Below, piece after piece: positions 52,728 to 61,488 of a DNA stretch of 64,000 bases. This DNA comes from Mesorhizobium loti (GTDB lineage Bacteria > Pseudomonadota > Alphaproteobacteria > Rhizobiales > Rhizobiaceae). Made by a program: the position numbers and the translations under genes. The stretch is from contig NZ_LPWA01000142.1 in NCBI RefSeq assembly GCF_001510895.1, positions 62,001 to 126,000 of the forward strand, read 5' to 3'. The notes below the pieces were generated by a model. The model saw nothing but the letters and a program-made list of their open reading frames with translations. It was not told the origin of the DNA and made no database searches. Each line of letters begins with the position of its first letter. Positions within the stretch are counted from its first letter, which is position 1.

Positions 52728-52915
52728 TGATCTCCCCCCTCATGGGGGAGATGGCCGGCAGGCCAGAGGGGGGCGCGAAGGAACGCAGTGTTGTGCTATC
52801 TTGCGGCTGGTTCGATCGGATCAACCCCGTGTGAATGTTCAATTTTGCTGATAGGCTGGCGGGACAGCGCCCCCCTCTGCCCTGCCGGGCATCTCCCCCA
52901 CAAGGGGGGAGATTG
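52728..52915. repeat. RIME-like composite palindromic repeat, copy 1
   Basis: Two arms of about 50 bases in inverted orientation, each with a CTCCCCC...GGGGGAG palindrome and a GGCAGGCCAGAGGGGGGCGC-type extension, enclose about 85 bases. It occupies the gap upstream of pleC and downstream of pepN. Similar to the RIME elements described in rhizobia. Confidence 0.8.
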
Positions 52916-52920
52916 GCAAA

Positions 52921-55565
52921 TCACGCCAGCGTCCGCTCCACAATATCCCGCAGATCGGCCGACAGGTTCTCGGCGTTCGCAATCTGCAGCAGCGCCTGCC
53001 TTGCCTTGTCCTGCCGGATCGGTTCCAGCGAGCGCCACGAGCGCAGTGCCGTCGCCAGCCTTGCCGCCACCTGCGGGTTGCGCTTCTCGACCTCCAGCAC
53101 AGTCTCGGCGAAGAAGCGGTAGCCCTGGCCGTCGGCGCGGTGAAAGCCGGTCTGGTTGGCGCTGGCGAAGGTGCCGATCAGCGAGCGCACCCGGTTCGGA
53201 TTGGCGATCGAGAAGGCGGGGTGCTGCATCAGCGAACGCACCTTGTCGACGGTCGCCGCCCCGGGCACGCCGGCCTGCATCTGGAACCATTTGTCGAGCA
53301 CCAGCGCATCGCCGCGATACTTTGCTTCGAAGCTCGCCAGCGCCTCGTCCGCTTGGCGAGAGCCGGCGTGGCGGTGCGCCAGAACGGTGAGCGCCGCGGC
53401 GCGGTCGGTCATGTTGGTTGCCGCGCGGAAATGGGCGGCGGCAAGGGCCGCGCCCTCGGGCAGCAGCGAAAGGTAATCGAGCAGTGTGTTGCGCAGCGCC
53501 CGCCGCCCGGCGCTCGCGGCGTCGGGCGTGAACGGACCCTGGTCGGCGAGGCTGTCGTAGAGCGCCGAGAAGGTCTCGCGGTTCGCTTCGGCGATCGTCC
53601 GCGCCAGCGCCTCGCGGGCGGCAAAGATGGCATCAGGGTCGATGCCCTTGCCGATGTCGCGGGCGATGTCGGCCTCGCCGGGCAGCGACAGCGCCAGCGC
53701 CCGGTAAGCCGGCTCCAGTGTCTCGTCGGCGGCGATCCTGCCGGCAAGCTCGGCGAGCCGTGCCGCGAAGGCCGGCTCCTTGCCGCCCAGCACCTGGCGG
53801 AAGGCCGCGATCAGCGCATCGGTGAGCAGCGTGTTGAACGCCTGCCAGCGCGAGAAGGAGTCGCCGTCATGGCTGGCGAGGAAGAACTGGTCGTCGGTCT
53901 TCTGCTGCACCGAGAGCGTGATCGGCGCCGAAAAGCCGCGGTTGAGCGACACCGAAGGCCGTTCTGATACGCCTGAGAAACGCACCGTGTGCCGCCGCTT
54001 GCGGACATGGATGACGCCGTCCTCGACAGTGGCGCCCTCGACGGCTGCCCAAGCAACCGGCTTGCCGCCGGCGCCGACCAGGCCGAAGGCCAGCGGAATA
54101 TGCATCAGCCGCTTGCGGCTTTCCGACGGCGTCGGCGGCACCGACTGTTCGATCTCCAGCGTGAACGCCTTGGCCGCGGCATTGTAGGAGGAACTGACCG
54201 TCAGGTTCGGCGTGCCGGCCTGGTGGTACCAGAGCGCGAACTGCGCGAGATCCCGCCCCGAGACGTCCTCGAATACTTTCAAAAAGTCCTCGATGGTCGC
54301 CGCCTCGCCGTCATGCCGCTCGAAATAGAGGTCCATGCCGGCGCGGAAGGTCTCGGGCCCCAGAATGGTGCGGATCATGCGCACCACTTCCGAGCCCTTC
54401 TCGTAGACGGTCGCTGTGTAGAAATTGTTGATCTCGCGGTAGCGGCGCGGCCTGACCGGGTGCGCCAGCGGCCCCTGGTCCTCGGGGAATTGATGCGCGC
54501 GCAGCGTACGCACCTCGGCGATGCGTTTCACCGCCCGCGAACGCTGGTCGGCGGAGAATTCGTGGTCGCGGTAAACCGTCAGCCCTTCCTTCAGGCAGAG
54601 CTGGAACCAGTCGCGGCAAGTGATTCTGTTGCCAGTCCAATTGTGGAAATATTCATGCGCGATGATCGCCTCGATATTGGCGAAGTCGGCATCGGTCGCG
54701 GTTTCCTCGTCGGCCAGCACATATTTGTCGTTGAAGATGTTGAGACCCTTGTTCTCCATCGCGCCCATGTTGAAGTCGGAGACGGCGACGATGTTGAAGA
54801 CGTCGAGGTCGTATTCGCGGCCGAAGGCTTCCTCGTCCCACTTCATCGAGCGCTTCAGCGCATCCATCGCATAGCCGGCAAGCCTCTCCTTGCCGGGTTC
54901 GACATAGATGCCAAGCTCGACCTCGCGGCCGGACAAGGTGGTGAAGCTGCCCGCCACCTTGCCGAGCGCGCCAGCCACCAGCGCGAAGAGATAGGACGGC
55001 TTAGGGAAAGGATCGTGCCAGACGGCGAAGTGCCGGCCATCGGCGAGTACACCGCTTTCAACCGGGTTGCCGTTGGAGAGCAGCAGCGGCGCCTCGTTGT
55101 GGGGGGCCTCGATGCGCACCGTATAGACGGAGAGGATGTCCGGCCGGTCGAGGAAATAGGTGATGCGGCGAAAGCCTCGGCCTCACATTGCGTGCAATAG
55201 ACATTGTTGGAGCGGTAGAGGCCCATCAGCGCTTCGTTGTTTGCGGGCGCGATCTTGGTCTCGAGTCGCAGCTCGAAGCGCCGTGCCGCCGGCGGCTTCG
55301 GGATCGTCAGCTGGTCCGGCGTCGCCAGGTAGTCGGCCGGCGCCAGCGCATGCCCGTCGACGGCAACGCCGAGCAGCGTCAAGCCGTCGCCGTCGAGCAC
55401 CAGCGGCGCGGACATGGCGGCGCCTTCGCGCCGCTCGACGGTGAGCAAGGCAGTGACGCGCGTGGCATCCGGCGACAGACGGAAATCGAGACTGGTCCTC
55501 GGAATGAGATAGTCGCTGGGACGGTAGTCTTCGAGTTTGAAGACATGGCCGGTATCGGTGCGCAT
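52921..55565 (-). CDS. pepN: Aminopeptidase N (M1 family), frameshifted
   Basis: About 881 residues after restoring one G near 55170 (gives [20 protein letters not shown]). M1 motifs: exopeptidase GAMENKGLNIFNDKYVL, and zinc ligands HEYFHNW plus the later Glu in LKEGLTVYRD. The N-terminal domain includes LEDYRPSDYLIPRTSLDFRL. The length and the [12 protein letters not shown] segment mark the E. coli PepN type. It removes N-terminal residues from peptides in the cytosol. ATG 55565 is chosen as the family start. RIME copy 1 follows the stop. Confidence 0.93.
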
Positions 55566-55717
55566 TCCGTCGGTTTTCCTGTCGATTTTCGGGCGGACAG
55601 CGGACGTGCTGGTCCAAGAATTTTGAAGTCCGCGCTCTTTACACGAAACGGTCACTCGACAAAACTGCGCCGGGGTCTATTTCTGGGCTTCGTTTCCGAC
55701 CATCGTCACGAGGCAAG

Positions 55718-57629: not shown

Positions 57630-57801
57630 CAGCCAATCTCCCTCCTTGTGGGGGAGATGCCTGGCAAGGCAGAGGGGGGCGTTGTCCCGCCGGCTTGTCC
57701 AATTGAGAACTGGCGCACCATGCGCGATTGCCGAGCTGGCGATCCTTCGCGCCCCCCTCTGTCCTGCCGGACATCTCCCCCACGAGGGGGGAGATCAGCT
57801 A
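57630..57801. repeat. RIME-like composite palindromic repeat, copy 2
   Basis: Same plan as copy 1: CTCC-rich palindromic arms at about 57635-57680 and 57755-57800 in inverted orientation. Its centre (TGTCCCGCCGGCTTGTC) resembles the reverse complement of copy 1's centre, so copies 1 and 2 lie in opposite orientation. Located downstream of the glycosylase gene. Confidence 0.8.
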
Positions 57802-58724
57802 ACCCTCAACCCCCTCAACTTTGCCTTCACCTCGAGAAAATCCCGCCACGCCAGCTTCTTATGCGCCGGCGTCCTGAGCAGATAGGCGGGGTGCAGCGTC
57901 GGCATGGCGGGAATTGCGATCCCGGAGGCGGTCGTATGCACACGCCAATTGCCGCGCAGCCTGAGAATCCCCTCGGTGGTGTTGAGCAGGGTCTTGGCCG
58001 ACGGCCCGCCGAGATTGACCAGCACTTTCGGATTGACCAGCTCGATCTGCCTTTCGATGAATGGGCGGCAGATCTCGGTCTCGTGCGGCGTCGGCGTGCG
58101 GTTGCCCGGCGGCCGCCACGGGATGACGTTGGCGATATAGGCCGATGTCCGGTCGAGCCCGATTGCCGCAAGCATCCGGTCGAGCAGCCGGCCGGAGCGG
58201 CCGACGAAGGGCAGGCCTTCGAGGTCCTCGTCGCGCCCCGGCGCTTCGCCGACCAGCATCAGATCGGCATCCGGGTTGCCGTCGGCGAAGACGAGGTTCT
58301 TCGCGGTGAATTTGAGGTTGCAGCCGTCGAAGGCCGCCATGTGCTGGCGCAATTCATCGAGCGTCGAGGCGCTTGCCGCGAGTTGCCGCGCGAGCAGCAC
58401 CTGCCCCTCATCGGGTACCGCGGCAGTGGCCGGCATCGTGCGCGCCGGCGCATCGGGCACATGGCTCGCGTCCAATCTGGGCGCAGGCGCCGGCCGCTCC
58501 GGTACCTGGTCTGAGCCGAGACTTGGCTGAGATGCTTGTCTTTCCGCAGGCCTGCTTTCACGGACGGGTGCGGCCGGCGCCGGTGCGCGCTCGGTCTGCT
58601 TTGGCCGGGCCTCCGCGAACCGGTTGATGGGCACGTCCTCGAGCGCCTCGTCGACGCCGGCGCTGGCATAGAAGGCCAGCAGCTCGGCGATATCGATCGG
58701 GTTGTTGGGGGAGGCGGCAGTCAT
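57795..58724 (-). CDS. Uracil-DNA glycosylase, family 4-like, with incomplete Fe-S ligand set
   Basis: 309 residues. A variable Pro/Ala-rich N-terminal ~110 residues precede the glycosylase domain: LMLVGEAPGRDEDLEGLPFV (uracil-binding motif), ANVIPWRPPGNRTPTPHETE and the final MPTLHPAYLLRTPA. Family 4 enzymes hold a 4Fe-4S cluster by four Cys. Here only DGCNLK and EICRPF are evident; the first Cys of the CXXC pair is absent and the CRPPGNR position reads WRPPGNR. A Bradyrhizobium enzyme of a related cluster-free class has been described, as I recall. It removes uracil from DNA for base excision repair. ATG 58724 fits. Confidence 0.87.
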   Translation of the reverse strand: MTAASPNNPIDIAELLAFYASAGVDEALEDVPINRFAEARPKQTERAPAPAAPVRESRPAERQASQPSLGSDQVPERPAPAPRLDASHVPDAPARTMPATAAVPDEGQVLLARQLAASASTLDELRQHMAAFDGCNLKFTAKNLVFADGNPDADLMLVGEAPGRDEDLEGLPFVGRSGRLLDRMLAAIGLDRTSAYIANVIPWRPPGNRTPTPHETEICRPFIERQIELVNPKVLVNLGGPSAKTLLNTTEGILRLRGNWRVHTTASGIAIPAMPTLHPAYLLRTPAHKKLAWRDFLEVKAKLRGLRVS

Positions 58725-58774
58725 GGCGCCACCATCGTCCGCGCGGCGGCATTTTGCAACCTTTGCGACGGCAT

Positions 58775-58922
58775 TCTCCCCCCTTGAGAGGGAGATGGCC
58801 GGCAGGCCAGAGGGGGTCGCCGCGCGTGAAACGCCAGCCTTCTTTCGCCCACACGGCACTGCGGCAGTTGAGGCGACCCCCTCTGTCGCCTCCGGCTGAT
58901 CTCCCCCTCGACGGGGGAGATC
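58775..58922. repeat. RIME-like composite palindromic repeat, copy 3
   Basis: Inverted arms with CTCCCCCCTTGAGAGGGAG and CTCCCCCTCGACGGGGGAG palindromes and GGCCAGAGGGGGTCGCC / GGCGACCCCCTCTG extensions. The centre differs from copies 1 and 2. Fills the gap between the hypothetical gene at 58921 and the glycosylase gene. Confidence 0.78.
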
Positions 58923-59559
58923 AGCCGGTCGGTATGCGCGGATCCTGCACCAGATAAAACGTCCAGCGCGGCGTGTAGTCGGTGATGAGGAAATCGAAGG
59001 TCGCCGTCTTCAACGGGTCGACCTTGCCGTTCTTGAACAGCAGCCGGTCGTACGGTTCGAACTGGCGGTCGAAATCGGCGAAACTGCTCGACCAGATATT
59101 GTCGGGCGTCTTGTTGCGTTGGTCGAAGGACAAGCCGTCGCCGAACACGCTCGGCTGGTCGAGGATTTCCTGCAGCTCGAACTGGAATTCCACCCAGGGC
59201 AGGGCGCTGTTATTGAGCACGTCGATGCGCATGTACATGATGCCGTTGGCGACATCGCCTGCCTTGCCGAAAGCCTCGATCGGCCTGGTGGCTCGAATGG
59301 TCAGCGTCACCGGCGTCGCCGAATTCAGCTCCTCGGTGATGACCAGCGGGTCTTCCTTGGTGCCTATTCCGGAAGCGCCGGTGATGCGGAAGCCGCCAAG
59401 CTCGTCGGAAAAGGAGTAGGCGCCGGCCGCCCACACCTTCTGCGGATCGGCTTGCGCCGGGGCGATCAGGAAGAGGAGCGGAAGAACCGCGCGGCAGAGC
59501 ACGCCGGGCGAGAAGAGTAAGCGCTTCGATGAAAAGCCGGATGGCTCGGGAGTGCGCAT
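58921..59559 (-). CDS. Exported conserved hypothetical protein
   Basis: 212 residues. Signal peptide (LCRAVLPLLFLIAPAQADPQ). The mature part is a beta-rich domain: SFSDELGGFRITGASGIGTK, DPLVITEELNSATPVTLTIR, MYMRIDVLNNSALPWVEFQF, and a closing FDFLITDYTPRWTFYLVQDP. I do not recognise a named family. The pattern of alternating hydrophobic strands suggests a periplasmic immunoglobulin-like or jelly-roll fold. It stands alone between RIME copy 3 and the divergent ETF-QO gene, sharing a 250-base upstream region. Confidence 0.72.
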   Translation of the reverse strand: MRTPEPSGFSSKRLLFSPGVLCRAVLPLLFLIAPAQADPQKVWAAGAYSFSDELGGFRITGASGIGTKEDPLVITEELNSATPVTLTIRATRPIEAFGKAGDVANGIMYMRIDVLNNSALPWVEFQFELQEILDQPSVFGDGLSFDQRNKTPDNIWSSSFADFDRQFEPYDRLLFKNGKVDPLKTATFDFLITDYTPRWTFYLVQDPRIPTG

Positions 59560-59810
59560 GGGGCCAAGTATTGCCGATAAGCAAGCCGTCGAACAATTAA
59601 AAACGTGCCACGCAGGCCTGGCCTTCCAACTGAATGGCCCTGGCCTATGCTTCGCTGTGGCCTACCCCAGGGCCGTTTCGTATGGAAAACCGCGACTTTT
59701 TGTCGAAATCGGCGTTGTCACACCAGCGCCGGTTTCGCGTCGCGAATTGATGCGCTATGCAGCGAGTGAGCCAGCAAAATGCAAGAATATGGCAAGCCAG
59801 TGAGGGGCAG

Positions 59811-61488
59811 ATGAGCGAGATCGAACGCGAGAGCATGGAATTCGACGTGGTGATCGTCGGCGCCGGTCCGGCCGGCCTCGCCGCGGCGATCCGTCTGAAG
59901 CAGCTCAACCCCGACCTGTCGGTCGTCGTGCTGGAAAAGGGCGGCGAGGTCGCGCCCACATCCTTTCCGGCGCCGTCGTCGACCCGATCGGCATCGACCG
60001 TCTTCTGCCGGGCTGGCGCGAGGAGGAGGACCATCCGTTCAAGACGCCGGTCACCGACGATCATTTCCTGGTGCTTGGCCCCGCCGGCTCGTTCCGCCTG
60101 CCCAACTTCCTGATGCCGCCGCTGATGAACAATCACGGCAACTACATCGTCTCGCTCGGCAATGTCTGCCGCTGGCTGGCGGCCAAGGCCGAAGCGCTCG
60201 GCGTCGAGATCTATCCGGGCTTTGCCGCGGCGAGCCTCGTCTACAACGAGGCGGGCGCCGTCACCGGCGTCATCACCGGCGACATGGGCGTCGAGAAGGA
60301 CGGCACGCATGGCCCGGCCTACGCGCCCGGCATGGCGCTGATGGGCAAGTATGTGCTGATCGGCGAAGGCGCGCGCGGCTCTTTGGCCAAGCAGCTGATC
60401 GCCAAATACAAACTTTCCGAGGCCGCGAACCCGGCAAATACGGCATCGGCCTCAAGGAGCTCTGGCAGGTCAAGCCGGAGAACCACAAACCAGGCCTGGT
60501 CCAGCATTCCTTCGGCTGGCCGCTCGACATGAAGACCGGCGGCGGCTCCTTCCTCTATCATCTCGAAGACAACCAGGTGGCGGTCGGCTTCGTCGTCCAC
60601 CTGAACTACAAGAACCCCTATCTGTCGCCCTTCGAGGAGTTCCAGCGCTTCAAGACGCATCCGGCGATCAAAGGCACTTTCGAAGGCGCCAAGCGCATCG
60701 GCTACGGCGCGCGCGCCATCACCGAAGGCGGCTGGCAGTCGGTGCCGAAGCTCTCCTTCCCGGGCGGCGTGCTGATGGGCTGCGCGGCCGGCTTCGTCAA
60801 CGTGCCGCGCATCAAGGGCTCGCACAACGCGGTGCTCTCCGGCATGCTTGCGGCCGAGAAAGTTGCGGACGCCATCGCCGCCGGTCGCGCCAATGACGAG
60901 TTGACCTCCTACGAGGAAGCCTGGCGCGGCAGCGATATCGGCAAGGACCTGAAGAAGGTCCGCAACGTCAAGCCGCTGTGGTCTCGCTTCGGCACCATCG
61001 TCGGCGTCGGCATCGGCGGTCTCGACATGTGGCTGAACACGCTGCTCGGCTTCTCGCCCTTCGGCACGCTGAAGCACGGCAAGGCCGACTACGCGACGCT
61101 CGAGCCGGCATCGAAGCATCAGAAGATCGCCTATCCGAAGCCGGATGGCGTGCTCACCTTCGACCGGCTCTCCTCGGTGTTTTTGTCCAACACCAACCAC
61201 GAGGAAAACGAACCGGTGCACCTCATCGTCGGCGACGCGGCGCTACAGCAGCGTTCCGAGCACGACGTCTTCGCCGGACCGTCGACCCGCTACTGCCCGG
61301 CCGGTGTCTATGAATGGGTGGACAAGGACGGCAACGCCGCCGCCGACCCCTCTGCGAAGGATGTGCGCTTCGTCATCAACGCGCAGAACTGCGTCCACTG
61401 CAAGACCTGCGACATCAAGGACCCGAACCAGAACATCAACTGGGTGCCGCCACAAGGCGGCGAAGGCCCGGTCTACCAGGGTATGTAG
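59811..61488 (+). CDS. Electron transfer flavoprotein-ubiquinone oxidoreductase, two frameshifts
   Basis: About 559 residues when single G losses near 59952 and 60421 are restored (VGAHILSGAVVDP; SEGREPGKYGIGLKELW). FAD motif VVIVGAGPAGLAAAIRL; ubiquinone-binding and membrane surface region GYGARAITEGGWQSVPKLSF; C-terminal 4Fe-4S ligands CPAGVYEW and CVHCKTCDIKDP. The enzyme passes electrons from ETF to ubiquinone, serving fatty-acid and amine dehydrogenases including dimethylglycine dehydrogenase. GAGGGG precedes ATG 59811. Two breaks in one essential-type gene support sequence error. Confidence 0.93.

Follow-up and report, generated by a model that had tools for sequence, protein, structure and literature searches.

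Whether a uracil-DNA glycosylase (UDG) of the family-4 type can work without its iron-sulfur cluster, and what such an enzyme would do for its host, is the question raised by one gene in the window, i.e., the whole stretch of 64,000 nucleotides of Mesorhizobium loti DNA analysed here. Whether repair glycosylases carry their Fe-S cluster for structural or for functional reasons is a matter of debate. We consider it rather probable (roughly 0.8) that this gene encodes the alphaproteobacterial variant of family-4 UDG, a working enzyme free of the cluster that stands in for Ung, the family-1 glycosylase. Motif A, Asn199 and motif B would then excise uracil by family-4 chemistry without a 4Fe-4S cluster, while Phe132, Trp203 and two leftover cysteines, judging from homology, would pack the former cluster site.

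The gene, its motifs and the four ligand positions

The features of the gene, with positions counted in the window, are as follows.

57795..58724, minus strand: UDG gene, 309 amino acids plus stop; matches TIGR00758 and PF03167
58617..58700, minus strand: N-terminal module, residues 9-36, a helix plus the motif LLAFYxxxGVDExLxDxPxxRF, from the ortholog alignment
58410..58607, minus strand: variable linker rich in Pro and Ala, residues 40-105, mostly predicted to be disordered (block pLDDT 42-77)
57798..58409, minus strand: catalytic core, residues 106-309, from profile matches, predicted model and fold match
58329..58331, minus strand: Phe132 (TTC), first Fe-S position, Cys in canonical family 4
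58320..58322, minus strand: Cys135 (TGC), second Fe-S position, retained
58236..58250, minus strand: motif A, GEAPG, residues 159-163, from sequence and ortholog alignment
58128..58130, minus strand: Asn199, the uracil-reading Asn by homology, invariant in the ortholog alignment
58116..58118, minus strand: Trp203 (TGG) of WRPPGNR, third Fe-S position, Cys in canonical family 4
58068..58070, minus strand: Cys219 (TGC), fourth Fe-S position, retained
57873..57893, minus strand: motif B, HPAYLLR, residues 278-284, from sequence and ortholog alignment
57840..57860, minus strand: C-terminal helix KxxxWxD, residues 289-295, mostly retained even in orthologs with altered glycosylase motifs

The gene starts with ATG at 58724 and ends with the stop codon at 57795-57797; a longer frame starting with GTG and reaching 58859 is possible, and the ATG version is favoured since most close orthologs align from its residue 1. 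In profile searches the protein scores 120.4 for PF03167 (cut-off 24.3) and 197 bits for the family-4 profile TIGR00758 (UDG_fam4; cut-off 125.3). The latter is a weak test of membership, since L519, an ortholog whose motifs are altered, clears it too, with 141.5 bits. The motifs are those of family 4, with a GE(A/G)PG-type motif A (GEAPGRDED in full, residues 159-167) and a motif B that begins with HPA; a passage of PMC10359453 quotes the family-4 motif B as HPAAVL, and PMC10776899 describes the role of the uracil-reading Asn in UdgX and family 4. The core of an AlphaFold2 model built with 47 sequences has a pLDDT of about 98 and superposes on Thermus family-4 UDG (1ui1) with Z 29.1 and an rmsd of 1.2 Å over 182 residues at 44% identity, and identity to Thermus family 4 generally is 42-44%.

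The original prediction had described intact glycosylase motifs together with the loss of two of the four Fe-S ligands, and the codons, read directly as Phe132, Cys135, Trp203 and Cys219, bear this out. The same F/C/W/C reading recurs in 80 of 80 close orthologs, nearly all of them from Mesorhizobium, which rules out a mutation specific to this gene, chance and sequencing error. Because two of the four ligands are missing, the protein probably folds without a 4Fe-4S cluster, as had also been proposed, and the confident core that superposes on the Thermus enzyme agrees with a family-4-like UDG of this kind. Since the four-cysteine set of family 4 is incomplete, the protein is filed here as a cluster-free sister lineage that would work like family 4. 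In PMC5295032, the cluster is credited with stabilising the family-4 enzyme and a loop, and Cys-to-Ser mutants of other family-4 UDGs are described as losing only about 40% of their activity, so that a cluster-free enzyme of family-4 type would be chemically unproblematic.

Upstream of the core, the N-terminal helix is modelled at residues 9-21 with low confidence (block pLDDT 47-67), and Gly23 of the module is present in 61 of 61 aligned orthologs. A profile of the N-terminal motif found no other convincing protein in the window genome (next best E 0.2). The extension had been noted as long and unusual; it is indeed long, but it is not peculiar to this protein, since the helix motif and the variable linker are common throughout the class.

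Two genes neighbour the UDG gene upstream.

58921..59559, minus strand: 212-amino-acid protein between the UDG gene and ETF-QO, with a signal-like N-terminus by eye; present at 79 of the 80 loci of close orthologs
59757..61488, plus strand: ETF-QO gene, divergent neighbour of the UDG gene in many loci across the class

The 212-amino-acid protein has no Pfam or NCBIfam match, and the N-terminal part of ETF-QO was found in 53 of the 104 class loci with flanks. In the window, ETF-QO extends over three overlapping frames (59757-60113, 60071-60532 and 60529-61488), and is either frame-broken or affected by an assembly error. On the other side, the minus-strand piece 54855-55655 resembles, by similarity to the annotation of phage-labelled record L363, the start of an aminopeptidase N-like gene whose frame seems broken off; a Pfam search of this piece gave no match. 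As well, long palindromic intergenic repeats with 51-nt arms (84% complementary) flank the UDG gene at 57631-57800 and 58772-58925, such a repeat also being present at 52744-52899, and the UDG stop codon falls inside the end of one of them.

A class-wide Trp form in Alphaproteobacteria

The loss of two ligands with aromatic replacements is a class-wide trait of Alphaproteobacteria. Among 61 aligned diverse orthologs of the class, Trp203 is present in all 61, position 132 is Phe in 58 and Tyr in 3, and Cys135 and Cys219 are each retained in 58. In a wider class set of 189 sequences, which is non-random because it was enriched on purpose for odd, low-scoring and Ung-bearing genomes, the third position is Trp in 173 and Cys in one, a four-Cys gene (L439) that is counted both here and in the set of 149 motif-intact orthologs used below; the 189 also include four incomplete orthologs located at the ends of contigs (L208, L211, L222, L234), which were left out of the altered-ortholog and Ung-versus-family counts. 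Of 385 class genomes, 366 have a match to the UDG protein at E <=1e-3, some of the best matches being UdgX.

Outside the class, 19 of 20 family-4 genes from other classes of the phylum carry all four cysteines, and the remaining one (L187, genome G578) carries Ser where the third cysteine would be. The exact DNA pattern for WRPPGNR was found in 77 of 135 alphaproteobacterial genomes versus 4 of 263 genomes of other Pseudomonadota; these four matches lie in short non-UDG frames, which rules out WRPPGNR UDGs elsewhere in the Pseudomonadota sample. In a tree from which the Fe-S sites were left out, a single branch separates the Trp form from the four-Cys form with support values of 98/94, for a chosen subsample of 57 Trp-form and 17 four-Cys sequences and with a bootstrap that had not fully settled. 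When UdgX and phage sequences are included, the Trp form requires two changes and no longer makes up one side of a single branch. In GTDB family f92, whose four genomes each have two or three matches, the four-Cys family-4 gene L439 (G371) was observed alongside altered-motif Trp-form orthologs L440 and L442 (G293 and G090).

Three phage UDGs from IMG/VR (L310, L338, L354) form a separate clade. They have WRPPGNR, and so Trp at the third position, in common with the Mesorhizobium protein, but none of the four Fe-S cysteines. Their Trp is an apparent second, independent replacement of the same kind, and because a separate clade carries it too, Trp may be a recurrent way to fill a lost cluster site. 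A viral scan with the UDG protein as single query found no relative. A phage carrier of the gene itself was considered and rejected: the best match labelled as phage, MW462191 at 60% identity, holds bacterial genes in bacterial order. In this record (L363, MW462191.1, labelled Bacteriophage sp.), pepN, ETF-QO and UDG follow the gene order of Alphaproteobacteria, and the contig seems to be bacterial and mislabelled.

No mention of a cluster-free family-4 form was found in searches of an open-access library, including the accessible parts of PMC10359453, PMC8307549, PMC10776899, PMC5295032 and PMC1839093, which is not proof that the form is unpublished. A natural cluster-free version in most of a bacterial class would make the structural-versus-functional question about the cluster directly testable by comparison of orthologs, and the apparently independent phage parallel adds to this test case.

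Motif state of the orthologs and the presence of Ung

The window genome carries four genes of the UDG superfamily (PF03167): besides the UDG described here there are a UdgX (KRRIH), a UDGb-like gene (GLAPG) and one of SQAPG type. Family-1 Ung (TIGR00628) gave no match at E 0.001 in this genome (G000), the UDG itself included, and the assembly is only 93% complete, so that an Ung gene could have been missed. Caulobacter was reported to have four COG1573-type UDGs, none similar to E. coli Ung, in a 2007 survey (PMC1839093). A further UDG-fold family, with a motif A of SQAPG or GQAPG type, occurs in several class genomes (L004, L260, L262, L264, L273, L389, L393). As well, the fourth UDG-fold gene of another genome (L265, G361), checked as a candidate relative of the Bradyrhizobium enzyme BdiUng, lacks the GQDP motif.

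Across the class, Ung is present in 29 of 385 genomes (TIGR00628, E <1e-50; 27 above the cut-off and 2 below). Over all 385 genomes, the UDG match is absent or weak (none, or E >1e-40; a few matches are UdgX) in 14 of 29 Ung-bearing versus 37 of 356 Ung-less genomes (Fisher p 1.6e-6). Among the 120 GTDB families examined, a non-intact or missing ortholog was found in 9 of 14 Ung-bearing versus 13 of 106 Ung-less families (p 5e-5), where intact means G[ED][AG]PG, Asn199 and His278, and where the Ung-bearing genomes G180, G188, G244 and G325, which have no ortholog by profile, are counted as non-intact. The other five Ung-bearing families have intact motifs in their Ung-bearing genomes.

The pattern is sharpest in the GTDB family of the window genome itself, in which 34 of 121 genomes have Ung above the cut-off and the ortholog profile matches 120 of 121, two of them weakly. 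The motifs were read in 90 of these genomes, comprising all 34 Ung-bearing ones and 56 of the other 87; the two weak profile matches (G784, G829) and the genome with none (G846, 68% complete) were left out, and seven genomes with weak Ung-like matches below the cut-off count as Ung-less, with G762, G803, G844 and G848 among the 56. Ung-less genomes have intact glycosylase motifs in 48 of 56 cases and Ung-bearing ones in 2 of 34 (Fisher p 1e-14), a count in which intact also requires Arg284, so that the losses of motif B are partly a matter of definition; motif A alone is retained in 51 of 56 versus 2 of 34. The eight non-intact orthologs of Ung-less genomes include some that are only mildly altered. 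Because the genomes of the family are related and its tree holds only about four changes of Ung, and because one clade contains 27 of the 32 altered orthologs from Ung-bearing genomes, the association, strong by genome counts, is modest when independent events are counted, and a sign test on independent pairs is not significant (median p 1). Ung is also not the sole road to altered motifs, since altered orthologs occur in some Ung-less families, e.g., f29, f52 and f92 (the last with the four-Cys gene in G371).

In the window's own family, Ung-bearing genomes hold 32 altered orthologs; among these, motif A has become GPMPx in 14 and motif B HPQ(D/E) in 22, WRPPGNR is whole in 19 and Asn199 is kept in 17, and all 32 retain Gly23, Lys289 and Trp293. 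Class-wide, 28 orthologs selected for the loss of motif A and Asn199 retain, at residues outside that selection, Gly23 in 86%, Pro286 in 89%, Lys289 in 82% and Trp293 in 100%, versus Arg284 in 21% and Pro172 in 25%. The N- and C-terminal modules are conserved. Some altered genes adjoin ETF-QO as the intact ones do (L370, L373, L374, L375, L376, L392, L400), which supports their orthology. One protein with GPMPY and HPQDLV, UIJ95938.1 from Sinorhizobium meliloti pSymB, is annotated as a uracil-DNA glycosylase.

Since the motifs of the Mesorhizobium protein are intact, Ung was not detected in its genome and Ung-bearing orthologs tend to altered motifs, the protein probably serves this genome as its main enzyme for general uracil removal. 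Orthologs that coexist with Ung look like retained pseudoenzymes. Because the terminal helices are retained in most orthologs with an altered active site, the short N-terminal helix on its disordered tether, together with the C-terminal helix, would probably serve contact with a partner or a second role independent of glycosylase activity. A fuller scenario, which we advance tentatively and rate as somewhat short of an even bet, is that the UDG has two functions, uracil excision and a glycosylase-independent one, and that gain of Ung made the first of these redundant and let the motifs be rewritten, leaving a conserved pseudoenzyme still annotated as UDG. The rewriting would have changed GEAPG to GPMPx and HPAYLLR to HPQDLxx, in a clade resembling Sinorhizobium and its kin.

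The relation of motif state to Ung, as read in the window's own family, is a new pattern, and may serve as a natural experiment on how DNA repair enzymes become redundant and how pseudoenzymes arise among them. It also carries a warning that some annotated uracil-DNA glycosylases of Ung-bearing Alphaproteobacteria, such as the Sinorhizobium protein above, may not excise uracil. The original prediction was right about the loss of the cluster ligands, but it foresaw neither the class-wide clade nor the alteration of the motifs beside Ung.

Alternative readings and known uracil-DNA glycosylases

The two retained cysteines raise the possibility that, together with other residues, they hold a residual metal site, either a degenerate Fe-S cluster or zinc. 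In line with this, both are highly conserved and co-vary: among 149 motif-intact orthologs, both are present in 113, neither in 15 and one in 21 (Fisher p 6e-8, or 3e-7 with one ortholog per family), and orthologs L415 and L426 even combine three cysteines with Trp at the third position. Co-occurrence beyond chance would be compatible with a structural pair, a disulfide or a weak metal site. However, Trp and Phe do not serve as ligands of Fe-S clusters, the 15 orthologs without either cysteine keep their glycosylase motifs, and L415 and L426 nest within the Trp clade, next to a relative that reads F/C/W/C, which gives their third cysteine the look of a late regain and rules them out as ancestral three-Cys intermediates. 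A residual metal site is thus improbable, and packing of the former site by aromatic residues and cysteines is preferred. Still less credit is due to the view that the UDG is itself a non-catalytic protein with the UDG fold and that the UDGb-like or UdgX gene removes uracil. Altered catalytic motifs in 35 of 185 complete orthologs (of the enriched class set) and the three further UDG-superfamily genes of the window genome (UdgX, the UDGb-like one and a fourth with the UDG fold) would suit it, but the catalytic residues are all intact in this protein and in 48 of the 56 Ung-less family members, and UDGb is described as specific for dsDNA and UdgX as self-cross-linking in a passage of PMC10359453. 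Such a non-catalytic role is very unlikely beside that of a working glycosylase.

The remaining alternative is the one favoured by the original prediction, in which the protein would be another member of the cluster-free Bradyrhizobium class. Both share the UDG fold, and the Bradyrhizobium diazoefficiens enzyme BdiUng (5gn2), which is not known to bind an Fe-S cluster, is among the Foldseek matches. Yet 5gn2 is only 18% identical to the UDG with TM 0.34/0.39, far below the family-4 matches, which places the UDG outside the BdiUng class, and motif A of BdiUng is GQDPA rather than GEAPG. Comparison with the Thermus and Bradyrhizobium enzymes, which had been proposed as the check, therefore sets the protein close to the former and far from the latter, and membership in the BdiUng class, a separate one within the superfamily, can hardly be credited.

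Among known systems, the closest is family 4 (UdgA or UDGa; Thermus thermophilus 1ui0 and 1ui1, Thermotoga maritima 1vk2), which the UDG resembles in fold, GEAPG, the uracil-reading Asn, HPAYLLR and the TIGR00758 match, and from which it differs by Phe and Trp at two of the four Fe-S positions and by an N-terminal extension of about 105 residues made of a helix and a linker. UdgX of Mycobacterium smegmatis (6ail) is alike in core fold at 33% identity, but the UDG has neither its KRRIH loop nor its GEQPG. The window genome's own UdgX (L002, on another contig) has both of these hallmarks, together with Cys at the first, second and fourth positions.
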